Assembly (NCBI GenBank): GCA_018699735.1
Contig: JABIRP010000160.1
Location: 1 to 37,111, forward strand
DNA: 37,111 bases
Reading direction: 5' to 3'
From: Rhodospirillaceae bacterium
GTDB lineage: Bacteria; Pseudomonadota; Alphaproteobacteria; Thalassobaculales; Thalassobaculaceae
The notes beneath the pieces are model-generated. The model did not search any database, was not told the origin of the DNA, and was given only the letters and a program-made list of their open reading frames with translations. A program made the position numbers and the translations under genes. Below are positions 26,072 to 34,716 of this stretch, one piece after another. The stretch's first letter is position 1, and each line of letters begins with the position of its first letter.

Positions 26072-27976
26072 ATGGCTGCCGAGAAACGTACCTTTCAAGC
26101 AGAAGTAAGCAAGCTTCTGCATATTGTCGCAAATTCGCTCTACAGCGAGCGCGAAGTCTTCTTACGAGAGTTGATCTCGAACGCGTCCGACGCTTGCGAC
26201 AAGCTGCGCTACATGGCGCTGACCAATGCTGAGTTGATTGAGGGCGATCCCGAATTCAAGATCCGCCTCTCCGTCGACAAAGACGCCAAGACCTTGATCA
26301 TTTCCGACAACGGCGTCGGTATGAGCGCGGAGGAATTGCACGAGAACCTGGGCACGATCGCGCGTTCGGGTACCGAGGCGTTCGTTGGATCGCTTAGCGG
26401 CGATGACAGCAAGGATGTGAGCCTCATCGGTCAATTCGGCGTGGGTTTCTATTCCGGGTTCATGGTGTCCAACCAGGTTGAAGTGCTGACCCGAAAGGCG
26501 GGCGAGGAAGCGGCCTCTCTCTGGCAGTCCGATGGGCTTGGCGAGTACGAGGTCTCAGCCGCCGAAAAAGCAGAGCGCGGTACCATGATTACGCTGCACC
26601 TGCGCGATGATGCGACAGAGTTCCTGGAAGAAGCGCGGCTTAAGCACATCGTTTCGACCTATTCCGATCATATCGCGATCCCAATCGTTCTCGATGGCGG
26701 CGAAACCGAAGATCCGCTGAATAAGGCCTCTGCCCTCTGGACCCGGCCAAAGAGCGAGATCACGGCCGAACAATATAAAGAGCTTTACCATCACGTTGGT
26801 CATAGCTTCGATGACCCATGGCTGACCATGCACTGGAAGGCTGAAGGGGTTATTGAATACACATCTCTGCTTTTTACGCCGACAGCGGCGCCCTTCGACC
26901 TTTTCCACCCTGATCGCAAACACCGGGTGAAGCTCTATGTGAAGCGGGTCTTCATCACTGACGATTGCGAAGGGTTGGTGCCGTCTTATCTGCGGTTCTT
27001 GCGCGGTGTTGTCGATTGCGAAGATCTGCCGCTCAATGTCAGCCGCGAGATGCTGCAGCACAACCCGGTGCTCAATAAGATCTCCACTGCCGTGATCAAA
27101 CGCGTGCTCTCTGAGCTTGCGAAGAAGGCCGATAAGGAGCCAGAGGAATACGCCAAATTCTGGGAAGCCTTTGGCGGTGTTTTGAAGGAAGGCCTGTACG
27201 GCGAAAGTGGCGATCACAGAAAACCAATTCTGGAACTGTCGCGTTTCAAATCGACCGGCGGCGATGGCCTGGTAAGCCTGAAAGACTATGTCGCTCGGAT
27301 GAAGGAGGGGCAGGAGGCCATCTACTACATCACTGGCGAGAACGCCGAGGTGCTGGCCAAGTCACCGCATTTGGAAGGCTTCCGCGCCAAGGGTGTCGAG
27401 GTCCTGTTGCTGAGTGATCCGATTGACGACTTTTGGGTCCCGAGCTTGTTCGAGGGCTACGAGGAGAAACAGTTCAAATCCATCACTCGCGGTGGCGCTG
27501 ATCTCGATAAGATAACCGACGGCGATGACGATAAGGACGATGCTGATAAAACCGCCAAATCGAAAAAGAAAGAAGACAAAAAGGCAGAGAAAGCGGACGT
27601 TTCCGCTCTGATCGCCAGTCTGAAACTGGCACTTGGTGAGACGGTGAAAGATGTGCGTGTTTCTGAGCGGTTGACCGACAGTCCGGTATGCCTGGTTGCC
27701 GACGAGGGTGACATGGATATGAACCTCGAACGCCTGTTGCGTCAGCACCAACAGATGACCGAGGCCTCGCCTCGCGTATTGGAGATCAACGCCAGTCACG
27801 CGCTGATCAAAACACTGAACGACCGTGTGATCGCGGGTAAAACCGGCATTGAAGTTGAGGATGCCGCGTACTTGCTGCTCGATCAGGCACGGATCGTCGA
27901 AGGCGAGAGCATTCCTGACCCATCGGCATTTGCTCGGCGCATGGCTTGGGTAATGGAGAAGGGCTTGGCGGGGTAG
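26072..27976 (+). CDS. htpG: Chaperone HtpG (bacterial Hsp90)
   Basis: A 634-residue cytosolic Hsp90 ATPase chaperone. The GHKL ATP-binding domain shows E33 in LRELISNASDA, DNGVGM (79-84), GTIARSGT (94-101) and GQFGVGFYSGFM (120-131). The middle domain includes VKLYVKRVFITDDCEGLVPSYLRFLRGVVD and LPLNVSREMLQ with the catalytic-loop Arg (R325). The C-terminal dimerisation domain ends normally. Between the middle and C-terminal domains (about 478-509) lies an Asp- then Lys-rich linker, more charged than in E. coli HtpG. The gene is monocistronic or leads the following aminotransferase 47 bases on, and is likely under RpoH control. Confidence 0.97.
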   Translation: MAAEKRTFQAEVSKLLHIVANSLYSEREVFLRELISNASDACDKLRYMALTNAELIEGDPEFKIRLSVDKDAKTLIISDNGVGMSAEELHENLGTIARSGTEAFVGSLSGDDSKDVSLIGQFGVGFYSGFMVSNQVEVLTRKAGEEAASLWQSDGLGEYEVSAAEKAERGTMITLHLRDDATEFLEEARLKHIVSTYSDHIAIPIVLDGGETEDPLNKASALWTRPKSEITAEQYKELYHHVGHSFDDPWLTMHWKAEGVIEYTSLLFTPTAAPFDLFHPDRKHRVKLYVKRVFITDDCEGLVPSYLRFLRGVVDCEDLPLNVSREMLQHNPVLNKISTAVIKRVLSELAKKADKEPEEYAKFWEAFGGVLKEGLYGESGDHRKPILELSRFKSTGGDGLVSLKDYVARMKEGQEAIYYITGENAEVLAKSPHLEGFRAKGVEVLLLSDPIDDFWVPSLFEGYEEKQFKSITRGGADLDKITDGDDDKDDADKTAKSKKKEDKKAEKADVSALIASLKLALGETVKDVRVSERLTDSPVCLVADEGDMDMNLERLLRQHQQMTEASPRVLEINASHALIKTLNDRVIAGKTGIEVEDAAYLLLDQARIVEGESIPDPSAFARRMAWVMEKGLAG

Positions 27977-28023: not shown

Positions 28024-29193
28024 ATGAGCGAGTTCGATATCGCGCGAGCCAGAGCCGAGACGCGCGGATGTGCTCGGGTGGCGCATTTGAACAATGCCGG
28101 GTCCTCGCTGACGCCAGCGCCAGTGGCCGACTACCTGCGCACCTATCTCGATGAGGAGGAGATGCTCGGGGGCTACGAGGTGGCCGCGCGACGAGACGGC
28201 GATCTAGAGAATTTCTATACCGCCACCGCGCGTCTGTTGAACGCCTCGAGCGATGAGATTGCTTTCATTGAGAACGCGACCCGGGCCTGGGATATGGCGT
28301 TCTACGCCATTCCGTTTGAGCCCGGGGACCGGATCCTAACGGCCATGGCGGAGTACAGCTCCAATATGATTGCCTACATTCAGCGCGCAAAAGCCACCGG
28401 GGTGACGATCGAAATCGTCCCGAATGATGCATCCGGGCAACTCGACGTGGCGGCGTTGGAGGCAATGATCGATGACCGGGTCAAACTGATCGCTATCACC
28501 CATGTGCCGACCGGTGGCGGTCTGGTCAATCCGGCCGAGGAAATTGGCCGGGTCGCTCGAAAGCACGACATTCTCTACCTGCTTGATGCTTGTCAGTCGG
28601 TTGGCCAAATGCCGGTCGATGTGGAAGCGATCGGCTGTGACATGCTTTCGGCGACCGGCCGAAAATACCTGCGCGGACCACGTGGTACGGGGTTCCTCTA
28701 TGTGCGCCGAAACCGGATCGAGATGCTTGAGCCGCCGTTTCTCGATTTGTTCTCGGCCGAATTGGTGGCGACGGACAGATACGTCGTGCGATCGGACGCG
28801 CGAAAATTTGAGAATTGGGAACGCTACTTCGCTGGCCAAGCCGCTTTGGGGCATGCGATTGATTATGCTCTCGACTGGGATATCGATGCCATCTGGGACC
28901 GGGTGAAGGACCTTGGCGAAATTTTACGGGCCTCACTCGCTGCCCTGCCGGGTGTCGAGGTAACCGATGAAGGCAAAGTGCGCTGCGGCATAGTGACCTT
29001 CCGGAAGCAAGATGAGACAGCAACATCGATCAAGGCTCGTCTGGCGGAACACGGTATCAACGTTTCGACTTCATCTGCCTCCGGCACCCTTCCAAGTTTT
29101 CAGGCCCGCGGCATTGATGAGGTTGTTCGCGCCAGCGTCCACTACTACAACACTGAAGACGAGATCGCGGCCCTGGTTGAGGTGTTGCGATAA
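28024..29193 (+). CDS. Class V aminotransferase-fold PLP enzyme, not a desulfurase
   Basis: A 389-residue PLP-dependent enzyme of the class V family (isopenicillin-N-epimerase/cysteine-desulfurase-like). The Schiff-base lysine is K214 in SATGRKYLRGPRGTGFLYV, with D188 and Q191 in LLDACQSVGQ holding the cofactor. The conserved catalytic cysteine of SufS/IscS is absent: the corresponding C-terminal loop reads NVSTSSASGTLPSF. A lyase, epimerase or transaminase is therefore more likely than a desulfurase. ATG 28024 has AGGAGAAG upstream. It sits between htpG and a TerB-like gene that starts 25 bases after its stop; the substrate cannot be inferred. Confidence 0.87.
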   Translation: MSEFDIARARAETRGCARVAHLNNAGSSLTPAPVADYLRTYLDEEEMLGGYEVAARRDGDLENFYTATARLLNASSDEIAFIENATRAWDMAFYAIPFEPGDRILTAMAEYSSNMIAYIQRAKATGVTIEIVPNDASGQLDVAALEAMIDDRVKLIAITHVPTGGGLVNPAEEIGRVARKHDILYLLDACQSVGQMPVDVEAIGCDMLSATGRKYLRGPRGTGFLYVRRNRIEMLEPPFLDLFSAELVATDRYVVRSDARKFENWERYFAGQAALGHAIDYALDWDIDAIWDRVKDLGEILRASLAALPGVEVTDEGKVRCGIVTFRKQDETATSIKARLAEHGINVSTSSASGTLPSFQARGIDEVVRASVHYYNTEDEIAALVEVLR

Positions 29194-29218
29194 CGAATTG
29201 GAACTGGCGGAACGAACT

Positions 29219-29680
29219 ATGATCGAGCATTTGCGGAAATTAATTGGCATCAGCCCGCGCGTTGCGGTTTCCGACGTTGAGGACAATTCCGTCCGCCGCG
29301 CCGTCGCCGCGTTGTTGGCCAAGGCGGCGATGCTGGACGGCGAAGTTGACGAAGTCGAAGTTGATCAGGCGCGCAAAATCTTGGCCGAGCGGTTTGGATT
29401 GTCACGTGAGGACGCCGATGAAATCCTTGCCGAGGGTAGAGCAGACGCGGATGACGCCGTCGACCACTATGGTTTCACTCGTGTCATCCGCGACGCATTC
29501 GATCATGACGAACGGGTCGAACTGGTCGGCCAGATTTGGGAGATCGTGCTTGCCGATGGCGAGGTGCATGACTATGAGGCGGCCCTGATGCGCCGGCTCG
29601 GCGGCTTGCTGCACGTAAGCGACCGAGAGAACGGCGACGCGCGCAAGCAGGCGGTGGTGAAACTTGGGCTTGCGGGCTAG
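29219..29680 (+). CDS. TerB-family (tellurite-resistance-like) protein
   Basis: A 153-residue helical protein of the TerB family (COG4103-like). Two acidic repeats are visible: AAMLDGEVDEVEVDQARKILAERFGL and, in the second half, DHDERVELVGQIWEIVLADGEVHDYEAALMRRLGGLL; these Asp/Glu clusters are proposed metal-binding sites in TerB. Direct evidence for a role in tellurite resistance is lacking for such stand-alone members. ATG 29219 is chosen because the protein then begins at MIEHLRKLIG, the family N-terminus; the open frame extends back into the aminotransferase without homology. Part of the htpG-to-fdxA plus-strand series. Confidence 0.83.
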   Translation: MIEHLRKLIGISPRVAVSDVEDNSVRRAVAALLAKAAMLDGEVDEVEVDQARKILAERFGLSREDADEILAEGRADADDAVDHYGFTRVIRDAFDHDERVELVGQIWEIVLADGEVHDYEAALMRRLGGLLHVSDRENGDARKQAVVKLGLAG

Positions 29681-29734: not shown

Positions 29735-30073
29735 ATGACTTACGTCGTCACCGAAGCCTGTATCAAATGCAAGTATACGGACTGTGTCGAAGTCTGCCCC
29801 GTGGATTGTTTCTACGAGGGTGAGAATATGCTCGTCATTCATCCGGACGAGTGCATTGATTGTGGCGTCTGCGAGCCGGAATGCCCGCCGGAAGCCATTA
29901 TTCCCGATACCGATGACGGCGCCGAACGCTGGCTCTCGATGAATTTGGAATATTCTGAAGCCTGGCCGAATATCACGCGTCAAAAGGATGCTCCGGCCGA
30001 TGCTGATAAATTTGATGGCGTAGCAGGAAAGTTCGAGAAATTTTTCAGCGCCGAGCCTGGCACGGGCGATTGA
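29735..30073 (+). CDS. fdxA: Seven-iron ferredoxin FdxA (3Fe-4S/4Fe-4S)
   Basis: A 112-residue electron carrier of the Azotobacter FdI type. By alignment with FdI, shifted by one residue, C9, C17 and C50 hold the 3Fe-4S cluster and C21, C40, C43 and C46 hold the 4Fe-4S cluster; C12 and C25 match the free cysteines. The C-terminal extension after residue 60 ([12 protein letters not shown]) is normal for the family. ATG 29735 follows a strong AAGGAG. In many alphaproteobacteria fdxA lies directly before carD, as here. Its redox partner is not apparent. Confidence 0.95.
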
Positions 30074-30192: not shown

Positions 30193-30402
30193 GCATTGAA
30201 CGCGTCGTGGAAGAGGGAGACATAGTTTTCCGCGCCGCCCCCGAAAATGTTTCGGACCAATTGTGGCGATCATCCAGGACTGCTTACCAGCGGTTCTTTG
30301 CTGTTTTAGCGCTGGATGGATCGCAGAGGTACACCGATCGAAATCGACGGTGAGCGGGTCTGTTATGCTCGGGTTTTCGAAGACCGGGAGAGAATCTATA
30401 AA

Positions 30403-30942
30403 ATGACGAAAAAGTCTGAATACAAGGCCGGAGATTTCGTGGTCTACCCCACGCATGGCGTGGGCCGGATCATGGGGACCGAATCCCAGGAAATCGCAGG
30501 CACCCAGCTTGATTTGCTGGTTATTGATTTCGAACATGATCGAATGACGCTTAGAATCCCGCTCACCAAAGCCAAGAACTCTGGATTGCGTCGGTTGAGC
30601 AGCCGCAAGCAGATGGATGCAGCCCTCATCAAATTGAAAGGACGGGCTCGGGTGCGTCGCACGATGTGGTCACGCCGTGCGCAGGAATACGAGGCGAAGA
30701 TCAATTCCGGTGATCCGGTATCGATCGCCGAGGTGGTCCGCGACCTTCGTCGCAACACCAATCAGTCCGAACAGTCGTATAGCGAACGCCAAATGTATCA
30801 GGCAGCCCTTGATCGCTTGGCTCGCGAGTTCGCGGCGATCGAAAAAATCGACGAGGAAACAGCGACGCAGCGCCTTGAGAAAATGATGATGGCAACTGCG
30901 ACGGCAACCGCCGCTGCGGCTGAAAGCGCTTCGGCGGCCTAG
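30403..30942 (+). CDS. carD: CarD-family transcriptional regulator
   Basis: A 179-residue CarD/CdnL-type protein that binds the RNA polymerase beta subunit and stabilises open complexes, notably at rRNA promoters. The N-terminal RNA-polymerase-interaction domain begins EYKAGDFVVYPTHGVGRIMG and continues to VIDFEHDRMTLRIPL. The helical C-terminal domain includes RRTMWSRRAQEYEAKINSGDPVSIAEVVRDL and ERQMYQAALDRLAREFA. It ends in a low-complexity Ala/Thr tail. ATG 30403 follows GGGAGAGA and gives the family N-terminus; ATG 30316 is a less likely start. A rho-independent terminator follows. Confidence 0.95.
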   Translation: MTKKSEYKAGDFVVYPTHGVGRIMGTESQEIAGTQLDLLVIDFEHDRMTLRIPLTKAKNSGLRRLSSRKQMDAALIKLKGRARVRRTMWSRRAQEYEAKINSGDPVSIAEVVRDLRRNTNQSEQSYSERQMYQAALDRLAREFAAIEKIDEETATQRLEKMMMATATATAAAAESASAA

Positions 30943-30998
30943 TCGGCTGAGACAGGCTCTGTCGAGCTGGGGCCAAGGCCCGAATAATGATGACGATG

Positions 30999-31024
30999 CG
31001 GCGCCCTTTGGGGCGCCGTTTTCG
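30999..31024 (+). terminator. Rho-independent terminator of carD
   Basis: A perfect 8-bp stem CGGCGCCC (30999-31006) / GGGCGCCG (31011-31018) with a TTTG loop is followed by TTTTCGGTTT. It lies about 57 bases after the carD stop and is the clearest intrinsic terminator in the window. Confidence 0.9.
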
Positions 31025-31130: not shown

Positions 31131-31967
31131 ATGGATGAGGCGGAGGCAAGCGGTCCTTTTGGGGCGCTAGATCCCGACAGGTTCACGCTGTTACGGCGTG
31201 CCGTTCGAATCTGGGCGGTTGGTGCCGTGCGCGGAGACTCTGAGCGTTTGGCGGCTCTGCACGACGAGATCGGCGCGCGATGGGTGAGCGGCGATCGTAT
31301 TGTCTATCTCGGTGACTATGTTGGTCATGGACCTGCGGTCGTAGAGACAATCGACGAGTTGTTGCGGTTTCGTCGTTTGGTCCTGGCGCAACCGCCATTT
31401 ACCCATCTCGACGACGTCGTCTTTTTGCGCGGGAGCCAGGAAGAGATGTGGAGCAAGCTGCTGCAGCTGCAATTCGCATCAGAGCCGACACGGGTGTTGG
31501 ATTGGATGTTCGAGCGCGGTGTTCGGCGCACGCTTGAAGCCTATGGCGGCAACTCTTCTCACGCTTATGCTGCGGCCCGTGACGGCTCGTTGGCGTTGTC
31601 CCGATGGACCCAGTCGATCCTCGGCCGCATGCGTGCGCGCGCCGGGCATTCAGAGTTTCATGCTGCGCTGAAACGCGCCGCATTTACCGAGAACGGTGGA
31701 TTGCTTCTGGTAAACGCTGGGATCGATCCAACTTTGCCGTTGGAACGACAGGGCGATCGTTTTTGGTGGGATGCCGGCGGGTTTGCGTCCATGAAAGCGC
31801 CTTTTGCCGGCCTGGGTGTCGTTGTGCGGGGCAGTGACCCGGCTCGTTCGGGGCTGGTGACCGGCAGTCACACGGTCAGCCTCGATGGCGGGTCCGGCCT
31901 GGACGGCGAACTCCTTGCGGTCTGCCTTAGCCCCAAAGGTGACGTCGTAGAGGCGCTTGTGGCTTAA
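31131..31967 (+). CDS. Degenerate metallophosphatase-fold protein, probable pseudoenzyme
   Basis: A 278-residue protein whose layout follows bacterial Ser/Thr-phosphatase-type calcineurin-like enzymes but with the metal site dismantled. The GDxHG motif reads GAVRG (31-35), GDxxDRG reads GDYVGHG (61-67, only D62 kept), GNHE reads GSQE (101-104), the HAG ligand is N195 (LLVNAG) and the final HGH motif reads RGS (233-235). The flanking framework (VYLGDYV, VFLRG, NAGIDPTLPLERQ, VVVRG) is intact, and the frame is unbroken, so it is a conserved scaffold and not decay. It probably binds a ligand or partner without hydrolysis. It lies between carD and rpoH, 96 bases before rpoH. Start ATG 31131 lacks a strong ribosome binding site. 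Confidence 0.78.
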   Translation: MDEAEASGPFGALDPDRFTLLRRAVRIWAVGAVRGDSERLAALHDEIGARWVSGDRIVYLGDYVGHGPAVVETIDELLRFRRLVLAQPPFTHLDDVVFLRGSQEEMWSKLLQLQFASEPTRVLDWMFERGVRRTLEAYGGNSSHAYAAARDGSLALSRWTQSILGRMRARAGHSEFHAALKRAAFTENGGLLLVNAGIDPTLPLERQGDRFWWDAGGFASMKAPFAGLGVVVRGSDPARSGLVTGSHTVSLDGGSGLDGELLAVCLSPKGDVVEALVA

Positions 31968-32063: not shown

Positions 32064-32954
32064 ATGGGTTACGCAGATCAAGGTCTTGCTGAACAAGCGA
32101 CCCGAGGCTTCATCAAAACGACGATGAAAGCGCCTTTGTTGACCAGGGAACACGAGCTCGATCTGGCGCGCCGGTGGCGCGATGACGAAGATGAAGCTGC
32201 CCTGCATGAGCTTGTCCAAGCCTACATGCGCCTTGTTGTGAGCCTGGCGGTTAAGTTCCGGAATTATGGATTGCCGATGAGTGATCTGATCCAGGAAGGC
32301 AACATTGGGCTGATGCAGGCTGCAGCCCGTTTTGAGCCCGAGAGAGAAGTTCGCTTTTCGACCTATGCCGTCTGGTGGATCCGCTCTGCCATCCAGGACT
32401 ATGTCTTGCGAAACTGGTCGATTGTCCGGATTGGTACGACGGCGACGCAGAAATCTCTATTCTTCAACCTGCGCCGTCTGCAGGCGCGGATCGGCGTTGC
32501 CAGCGCGCCCCAGGATCGTCGTCCAGGTGAAGCAGATGACACCATCGCCGAACAGTTGCGTGTCGGGGTTCATGATGTGGAAAAGATGCGCCTGCGATTG
32601 AGTGGGTCCGATCAATCACTTAACGCAACCGTTGGCGAAGATGGTGACGAGGAGTGGCAGGAGTTCCTGGCCGACGAGCGGCCGAACCCGGAAGAAACCA
32701 CCACAGTGTTGCGGGCTGGAAATACCCGGACGGAATGGCTGGCGGAAGCTCTGATGGAGTTATCACCCCGTGAGCGCACGATCATAGAGTGCCGGCGTCT
32801 GACGGAAGAGGGTGCCACGCTTGAGGCGTTGGGTCGCCAATTGGGCGTATCGAAAGAACGTGTACGCCAGATCGAAAGTCGAGCCCTGGGTAAGTTGCGC
32901 GACTGCATCAGTCGCCGGATAGACGATCCGAGCGATCTATATTCGGCTGTATAG
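32064..32954 (+). CDS. rpoH: RNA polymerase sigma-32 factor (RpoH2-type)
   Basis: A 296-residue heat-shock-type sigma factor. Region 2 is visible as AYMRLVVSLAVKFRNYGLPMSDLIQEGNIGLMQAAARFEPEREVRFSTYAVWWIRSAIQDYVLRNWSIVRIGTT. The RpoH box QKSLFFNLRRL follows, which separates RpoH from RpoD. Region 4 ends with the helix-turn-helix LEALGRQLGVSKERVRQIESRALGKLR. The divergent N-terminal region and context beside fdxA-carD suggest the RpoH2 branch, which in several alphaproteobacteria responds to oxidative and general stress. ATG 32064 follows AAGGGGGCGA. It should help drive hsp20 and htpG in this window. Confidence 0.94.
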   Translation: MGYADQGLAEQATRGFIKTTMKAPLLTREHELDLARRWRDDEDEAALHELVQAYMRLVVSLAVKFRNYGLPMSDLIQEGNIGLMQAAARFEPEREVRFSTYAVWWIRSAIQDYVLRNWSIVRIGTTATQKSLFFNLRRLQARIGVASAPQDRRPGEADDTIAEQLRVGVHDVEKMRLRLSGSDQSLNATVGEDGDEEWQEFLADERPNPEETTTVLRAGNTRTEWLAEALMELSPRERTIIECRRLTEEGATLEALGRQLGVSKERVRQIESRALGKLRDCISRRIDDPSDLYSAV

Positions 32955-32976: not shown

Positions 32977-34716
32977 CTAACTGGTCAAATCGACGACCCG
33001 TGCCGCTGGGAAAACAAAGGTGAAGTTCGAACCTTTGCCGGGCGTGCTTTCAATCTCCAAATGGGCACCATGCGCTTGAAGGATGGCTTCGGATATCGCT
33101 AAGCCGAGTCCAAGACCGCCGCGATCACGGACATAGGCGGATTTTACGCGGGCGAATTTCTGCCGGATCACATCCAGATCTTTGGCTTCAATTCCAGCAC
33201 CCTCATCGATCACACTGACGGCGAGTTCGCCGCCCGACCTATGGTCAGCGCTGATTGTGATATGGCCGCCCTCGTCGCTGAAATTGATCGCGTTGGCGAT
33301 CAAGTTGGTCAGCACTTCGGTCACTCGTACGCGGTCGGCGCGAAGGGCTGGAAGATGCTCTGGTAGCTCGATTTTGATCTCGATTTCCCTGGCTTGCGCT
33401 TTCGGTGTTGCCATGTTTTTGCAGTCTGTGGCGATGCGCTTCAGGTCCAGCCACTCTTCGCTTAAGGCCGGCTGTGCATCGCCCAAACGGGTGATATCGA
33501 GGACCTGCTCGATCAACCCGAGGAGATACTTGGCTGATCGGTTTATATCTTCGAGATATTCGTTAAACCGAGCCTCGCCAATCTTGCCAGCGGCACCGAC
33601 GCGCATGAATTCGCTAAACCCAATGATGGAGTTTAGAGGCGTGCGCAGCTCATGGCTCATGCTTGCCAGGAACTGGTCTTTGGCCTTGGCTGCACGAACA
33701 GCCTCATCCGTCACTTGAACTAGGTCGCGGGCAATACGGCGCTGATCGGTGAGCGCACAGGAGATGACCAAACCCGTGACAGCGGCCGTAATGAGGAAGA
33801 CCTGAAGGTTTTGCAGAGACTGCCCAGTTGCTTCCTCCAATCTGACGAATGGACCGAGTCCCATTCCAGTGTGAAGCGTCGCCAAGGATCCGAGCAAAAG
33901 CATACCGGCTGCCACAGCTGGTAAGGGGAACCGCGTGGCACCCCAGATCAGGAAGGGCAGCAAAAGATACGGCAAAGATATAGTGAAAGATTCACTCGAC
34001 GGTGTTGAGAATATAATGACTTCGGCGGCTGTAGAGGTGAGCAAGAGCGCCAACGCCTCGTAGGCCCGAGGTCGGTGTCGTAATGCGACCAACTCATTGA
34101 AACGGAACTTCAATACCAGGATTGTCGGGGCAATCAAGATGCTTGAAGATGCTGCCGTTAGCCACCAGTCGCGGGCGATCACCCAACCGAGTGAGGTGCC
34201 CATATTGGCTTGAAGGACCGAGCTGGCAAGAATTGTTGCCGTACCGAGCAGAGGCCCCAGGGCCGCCCCTGCGGCAATGATCCAGAGCATCCCGTGTAGG
34301 CTGTCGATTTCGTACTTGCCAATGATGTAGCGCCGTAAATAGTAGGCTGCGGGCGCGACCTGTAGGACGGAAGCGACCAAGTATATCGCGGGCCCGCTAA
34401 ATCCATCATCGATCAGCGCAATCGTACCCAACAAATATGCCCCGGTCATAGCTGTGAGATGGCGCGGCCATGCTTTAAACGGTGCCAAGCTCAGAAGTGC
34501 CAGCAGCACAGCATTTGCTATACTAAGTTGAGACGCTCCTAGGTTTAATGCAAGGTCGGCACGTGTATATGCCCATGCGGCGGTCAAATAGAGGACGGCA
34601 ACGCCTGCCGACAGGATCCATTCTGACAGGTGGTTTGTTTCGATCGTTGAACTGTTTGTCCCGTGCTCTTGCATACAGCCAGAGGCCCTCGGCCGAATAG
34701 GACTTATCGACGTCAC
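32977..34716 (-). CDS. Membrane sensor histidine kinase with MASE1-like sensor
   Basis: A 579-residue histidine kinase. The N-terminal 325 residues hold about eight hydrophobic helices with the MASE1-like pattern PFLIWGATRFPLPAVAAGMLLLGSLATLHTGMGLGPF before LQNLQVFL. HisKA follows with phospho-acceptor H355 (ASMSHELRTPLNSIIGFSE). The HATPase domain has N475 in LTNLIANAINFS, DEGAGI (504-509) and GGLGLGLAIS (533-542). The start GTG 34716 has GAGGA eight bases upstream; ATG 34674 is an alternative. No response regulator is adjacent, so it is an orphan; the unpaired REC-EAL protein at 9396 is one possible partner but distance gives no support. It converges on rpoH. Confidence 0.9.
   Translation of the reverse strand: MTSISPIRPRASGCMQEHGTNSSTIETNHLSEWILSAGVAVLYLTAAWAYTRADLALNLGASQLSIANAVLLALLSLAPFKAWPRHLTAMTGAYLLGTIALIDDGFSGPAIYLVASVLQVAPAAYYLRRYIIGKYEIDSLHGMLWIIAAGAALGPLLGTATILASSVLQANMGTSLGWVIARDWWLTAASSSILIAPTILVLKFRFNELVALRHRPRAYEALALLLTSTAAEVIIFSTPSSESFTISLPYLLLPFLIWGATRFPLPAVAAGMLLLGSLATLHTGMGLGPFVRLEEATGQSLQNLQVFLITAAVTGLVISCALTDQRRIARDLVQVTDEAVRAAKAKDQFLASMSHELRTPLNSIIGFSEFMRVGAAGKIGEARFNEYLEDINRSAKYLLGLIEQVLDITRLGDAQPALSEEWLDLKRIATDCKNMATPKAQAREIEIKIELPEHLPALRADRVRVTEVLTNLIANAINFSDEGGHITISADHRSGGELAVSVIDEGAGIEAKDLDVIRQKFARVKSAYVRDRGGLGLGLAISEAILQAHGAHLEIESTPGKGSNFTFVFPAARVVDLTS

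Follow-up and report, generated by a model that had tools for sequence, protein, structure and literature searches.

Metallophosphoesterases that have lost their activity are known mainly in eukaryotes, where they act as scaffolds. In retromer, VPS29 is an inactive phosphatase fold that serves as a scaffold (PMC7539009), and the B subunits of the eukaryotic DNA polymerases alpha, delta, and epsilon (e.g., Dpb2), which are fused to an OB domain and bind DNA polymerase, contain an inactivated calcineurin-like domain (PMC7308368). An inactivated phosphoesterase retained as a binding module is a kind of protein already known; here, we describe a compact bacterial family, probably of this kind, that spans a class. 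It would work like VPS29 in that a metallophosphoesterase fold is used as a protein scaffold, but VPS29 is eukaryotic, belongs to another branch of the fold, and is not known to have a partner in common with the family. Unlike the DNA polymerase B subunits, the pseudophosphatase has a single domain and only a candidate partner.

The alphaproteobacterial PrpA/ApaH-like PPP metallophosphoesterases (L152 to L167; PDB entries 2qjc, 5vjv for Rhilph2, and 1g5b for lambda phosphatase) have the fold, the motif order, and the spacing in common with the family, and also the elements W..GG.TL.SYG and AGxxP..PL..Q after motifs III and IV. They differ in keeping all ligands (15/15), whereas the pseudophosphatases keep at most four of six and never the Asp of motif I. 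In addition, the helical stretch that follows motif III is longer and strongly conserved in the pseudophosphatases, whose genes occupy a different locus. With the CarD/CdnL locus of alphaproteobacteria, the likeness consists in the direct neighborhood with the pseudophosphatase gene. CarD has been proposed as an activator of many sigma-70 promoters in Alphaproteobacteria (PMC8407463). The CarD/CdnL literature that we found does not mention the pseudophosphatase gene, and our search of the open-access literature returned nothing on it.

A PPP-type phosphatase homologue encoded next to carD

We analyzed a stretch of 37,111 nucleotides from a Rhodospirillaceae bacterium, referred to here as the window. 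An earlier note on this DNA had described an ORF between carD and rpoH as a metallophosphatase scaffold stripped of its metal ligands. The ORF lies exactly where it was placed (31131..31967, + strand), starts with ATG, and encodes 278 aa, and domain and NCBIfam matches agree with the identity of its two neighbors, both on the + strand. The carD (cdnL) gene covers 30316..30942, with the Pfam domains CarD_TRCF_RID and CarD_C, and probably starts near 30403, judged by homology. The rpoH gene (32064..32954) is RpoH2-like (NCBIfam PRK07500, E value of 2.4e-117) and is an optional neighbor across the family; the source genome encodes a second RpoH, 46% identical to that of the window. Upstream of carD, an fdxA-like ferredoxin gene (29735..30073, + strand) completes the conserved fdx-carD order. 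Between carD and the ORF, a terminator-like hairpin (30998..31019, + strand) suggests that in the window the pseudophosphatase may be on its own transcript; the hairpin comes from a consensus scan only, which found three such sites against 2.1 expected in shuffles.

Farther upstream of the ferredoxin gene are genes for a TerB-domain protein (29012-29680; Pfam TerB, E value of 8.8e-33) and HSP90/HtpG (26072-27976), and at many related loci, genes resembling TerB and S4 are likewise found upstream of fdx-carD. A MASE1 histidine kinase gene (32977-34716, - strand) is convergent with rpoH.

We then examined the homology of the ORF product. The window protein by itself matched the Metallophos entry PF00149 with an E value of 0.11 and 13.3 bits, below the gathering cut-off of 21.5 bits, and a PDB search with this single sequence gave a weak match to ApaH (E value of 0.43). 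A family profile built from 120 members retrieved the Ap4A phosphatase 2qjc (E value of 3.9e-6) and the Rhizobiales-like phosphatase Rhilph2 (5vjv, 1.8e-5) from the PDB, and hhalign aligned the family to 15 intact alphaproteobacterial phosphatases with a probability of 99.8% and an E value of 8.6e-29, the five motifs being in register. The profile matches and this register indicate more than a chance resemblance of motifs: the ORF product is, by profile comparison, a true metallophosphatase homologue. The predicted structure led to the same PPP-type fold: five AlphaFold2 models of the window protein agreed with each other at high confidence (mean pLDDT of 95.6, pTM of 0.92), and a Foldseek search of the PDB with the predicted model placed the diadenosine tetraphosphatase 2qjc first (E value of 5.5e-10, TM scores of 0.56/0.69), followed by lambda phosphatase and then eukaryotic PPP enzymes. 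Among viral models, the Foldseek hits were Ser/Thr phosphatases from phages with this same fold, and no closer match appeared.

Loss of the metal ligands and probable remodeling of the pocket

In the window protein, the five motifs are found in the order and at the positions previously proposed, each as a remnant and all on the + strand. Motif I reads GAVRG (canonical GDxHG; residues 31 to 35, 31221..31235), with D32 replaced by Ala and H34 by Arg. Motif II reads YLGDYVGHG (canonical YLGDYVDRG; residues 59 to 67, 31305..31331), keeps the bridging D62, and has Gly for D65 and His for R66. In motif III, RGSQE (canonical xGNHE; residues 100 to 104, 31428..31442), Ser replaces N102 and Gln replaces H103, E104 being kept. 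Motif IV, VNAG (canonical VHAG; residues 194 to 197, 31710..31721), has Asn for H195, and motif V, RGS (canonical HGH; residues 233 to 235, 31827..31835), has Arg for H233 and Ser for H235. We scored D32, H34, D62, N102, H195, and H235 as the PPP ligand set. In HGH, we take the required ligand to be H235, not H233, and the alignment of intact homologues is consistent with this, its second His being invariant and the first nearly so. By this score, the window protein retains one ligand of six, D62, and the replacements in motifs I, III, IV, and V are those that the earlier note had listed.

To follow these positions through the family, we used orthologues from related whole genomes, 30 to 55% identical to the window protein. 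The set of 151 loci came down to 149 without two duplicates (L007, equal to L002, and L011, equal to L003), which are identical contigs kept in two collections. Ligand loss is common to all 149 members, each of which keeps between zero and four of the six ligands, mostly one or two, so that the two-metal site of active PPP phosphatases and ApaH (D, H, D, N, H, H) is complete in none of them; the 15 canonical homologues, which come from related genomes, all have every motif intact. The motif I Asp is never present (Ala in 99 members, Ser in 40), the bridging Asp is kept in nine, including the window protein, and is Asn in 133, and N102 is kept in four. H235 is kept in six members and is Phe or Tyr in 114. 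H34 is found in 119 (Arg in the window protein and seven others) and H195 in 72, and one weak metal site might therefore be present in some members. The residues corresponding to the general-acid His of GNHE and the substrate Arg of DRG are affected as well: position 103 is Gln in 139/149 members and His in 2, and DRG has become GxG, with Gly for D65 in 148/149 and Arg at position 66 in 38 members, the window protein not among them. The first His of HGH is Arg in 139 members and His in none, and E104 is invariant (149/149). With the metal-holding and proton-donating residues replaced, two-metal hydrolysis of phosphoesters would not be expected, and we consider the protein very probably non-catalytic.

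The substitutions in the pocket covary as sets. The combination H34-N62-F/Y235 occurs in 95 of the 151 rows, and the close relatives of the window protein, which form its own subclade, have R34-D62-S/A235. Since the D62 rows are nested among N62 rows in the tree, D62 of this subclade may have been regained rather than retained from the ancestor. The joint substitutions look like a repacking of the pocket in which an Arg-Asp pair replaces the metal site, and such linkage is what a remodeled pocket, rather than decay, would be expected to produce.

A remodeled pocket could also belong to an enzyme with a changed mechanism, such as a mononuclear or metal-free hydrolase, a lyase, or an epimerase, which would use the conserved H34, N62, Q103, E104, R100, and R233. 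The pocket is indeed strongly conserved, as the above counts for E104 (149/149), Q103 (139), R233 (139), N62 (133), and H34 (119) illustrate, and column entropy is lowest along residues 101 to 110. However, D32 is lost in all members, 133 have Asn for the bridging Asp, and 114 have Phe or Tyr in place of the pocket ligand H235; moreover, the subclade of the window protein also lacks H34, which leaves E104 as the only polar ligand position common to all. We regard a changed enzyme as distinctly unlikely.

Selection, origin, and distribution of the family

Loss of ligands might also be expected if the gene were decaying and retained beside carD by chance, and the distribution of the family, which is patchy and implies several losses on the CarD tree, could be read in the same way. 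Against this, reading frames are intact in nearly all orthologues, pairwise dN/dS values (NG86) for the 25 closest pairs range from 0.04 to 0.21, indicating purifying selection, and conservation spans the whole class, with W28, G61, G101, E104, W212, and G234 invariant across the family. Close relatives with all ligands, as recent decay would leave them, were not observed. The family-wide pattern of loss and the dN/dS values rule out recent decay or a local pseudogene, and the counts refute decay as an explanation for the family in general; it could apply to the source genome alone, and we find it scarcely credible as the explanation of this gene. Catalytic residues have been lost while fold and gene were retained by selection, which is the hallmark of a pseudoenzyme. 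The earlier proposal of a non-catalytic protein under selection is thus borne out by the class-wide ligand loss, the dN/dS values, and the high-confidence predicted fold.

In a tree that includes the 15 intact homologues, a single branch (support of 91/86) separates the family from them, pointing to a likely single origin of the pseudophosphatases; part of the family tree was made unreliable by two very distant own-genome rows. When the profile was run against 398 genomes of the phylum, strong members (E < 1e-90) came only from Alphaproteobacteria, and the next matches, with E values of 1e-20 or weaker, scored like intact phosphatases. About a third of the sampled alphaproteobacterial genomes (∼134/385) had a strong match. 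Plasmid records gave weak matches alone, of <32% identity and at least some of them annotated as metallophosphoesterases. No model in Pfam or NCBIfam names or covers the family: in NCBIfam, members came closest to symmetrical Ap4A hydrolase (6.5e-7 at best), and the best PF00149 E value among 120 members was 0.031. Automatic annotation is likely to give these proteins a misleading label, either phosphatase or hypothetical protein. We conclude that they apparently constitute an ancient, conserved, and unnamed family of alphaproteobacterial PPP-type pseudophosphatases.

We propose that the pseudophosphatase acts as a stable binding module, which would recognize either a partner protein or a phosphorylated ligand and thereby scaffold or regulate. 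In its pocket, Arg233, together with Arg34 in the clade of the window protein, would substitute for the charge of the metals; this picture uses the pocket geometry and surface patches that we infer from sequence. That the protein is a binding or regulatory module is likely, and the explanation as a whole, i.e., an ancient family of apparently single origin kept as a non-catalytic binding module, we hold to be true on balance.

The partner might be sought among active phosphatases of the same cell, with the pseudophosphatase regulating or competing with a paralogue through shared substrates. Many pseudoenzymes behave in this manner (PMC10211241), and the closest active relatives of the family are class-wide PrpA/ApaH-like phosphatases. 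The source genome encodes nine PF00149 proteins. However, it has no paralogue detectable from the window protein at an E value of 0.001, and a close paralogue is present in some carriers of the gene and absent from others, making such competition a highly doubtful role.

Gene neighborhood and candidate partners of the proposed binding module

Evaluation of the 149 loci revealed that carD is beside the pseudophosphatase gene in 131 of them, a ferredoxin gene is present in 110, rpoH in 64 (downstream and on the same strand), and an M48 peptidase gene in 55, the latter label coming from a reading of the cluster sequence by eye. The usual order is ferredoxin, carD, pseudophosphatase, optionally rpoH, and optionally the M48 peptidase on the opposite strand. 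Because the gap between carD and the gene is 60 nt or less in 25/133 loci, the two are probably cotranscribed at some loci.

The adjacent heat-shock sigma factor had led the earlier note to suggest a regulator, for example one that binds phosphoproteins or RpoH itself; a regulator of RpoH might be an anti-sigma or chaperone-like partner. The 64 loci with rpoH downstream on the same strand fit this proposal, but the distribution of the two genes does not. We assigned proteins with at least 51% identity to the window RpoH to the RpoH2 class and found no consistent co-occurrence of this class with the pseudophosphatase across genomes: of 54 carriers without an adjacent rpoH, 20 have an RpoH2-class protein somewhere and 34 have none anywhere, two of the latter lacking any RpoH match at an E value of 1e-50, and 17 of 26 non-carriers do have an RpoH2-class factor. 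A dedicated RpoH regulator is unlikely to behave so. Furthermore, in genomes without the gene, rpoH directly follows carD at 10 of 29 carD loci and an M48 peptidase gene takes this place at others, and we therefore see pseudophosphatase and rpoH as separate optional residents of one locus. Tried by synteny and by co-occurrence, the RpoH partnership found no support, and we rate it very improbable. One of the carriers without an RpoH match at 1e-50 (G170, locus L134) has a genome that is 99% complete.

For the pseudophosphatase as a binding module, gene order would place the partner, more tentatively, on the CarD/RNA polymerase side of transcription and not with RpoH. Only CarD or RNA polymerase has even indirect support as a candidate, in the form of synteny, and the same gene order applies to ferredoxin; the synteny with carD may be inherited order and not function, since ferredoxin also adjoins carD. 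A partnership with CarD or RNA polymerase is accordingly rather unlikely in our estimate. In a more specific version, which we consider unlikely, an inactivated PPP phosphatase would have become a dedicated part of the alphaproteobacterial RNA polymerase machinery that depends on CarD, serving it as a non-catalytic subunit or as a regulator, and its remodeled pocket might sense a phosphorylated ligand, for instance a nucleotide alarmone. If true, this would give bacteria a counterpart to those subunits of eukaryotic DNA polymerases that are inactivated phosphoesterases, and a partnership with CarD or RNA polymerase would be important given the proposed role of CarD at many sigma-70 promoters. 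The adjacency to carD makes a role in transcription testable through a single deletion.

We also looked for coevolution of CarD with the pseudophosphatase. At residue 134 of the window CarD ORF, Pro is found in all 131 carriers that have the residue, and Leu or Ile in 13 of 29 non-carriers. The Leu/Ile rows require just two changes on the CarD tree, and we therefore attribute the pattern to lineage and reject coevolution through P134. Many genomes carry carD without the pseudophosphatase gene, and no intact phosphatase, as an active ancestor at the carD position, was identified in its place at the 29 gene-less loci (rpoH, the M48 peptidase, or other genes being there instead). Among small genomes, one of 1.7 Mb (G041) gave no CarD match, and in one of 1.5 Mb on a single contig (G022), from the family of the window, the only CarD-like sequence is a broken remnant containing several stops.

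In 18/148 loci, the gene is away from carD and beside unrelated genes, including ffh, acyl-CoA dehydrogenase, polysaccharide export, transport, and others, with no common theme among the ten neighbors recognized by eye. At L118 (genome G128), the ferredoxin gene is immediately 5' of the pseudophosphatase gene, with no carD detected between them. Three of the loci away from carD belong to family f105: at L062, the pseudophosphatase gene and an ffh-like (SRP) gene are divergently oriented, and at L092 and L098, a neighbor encodes 449 aa, a length equal to that at L062.
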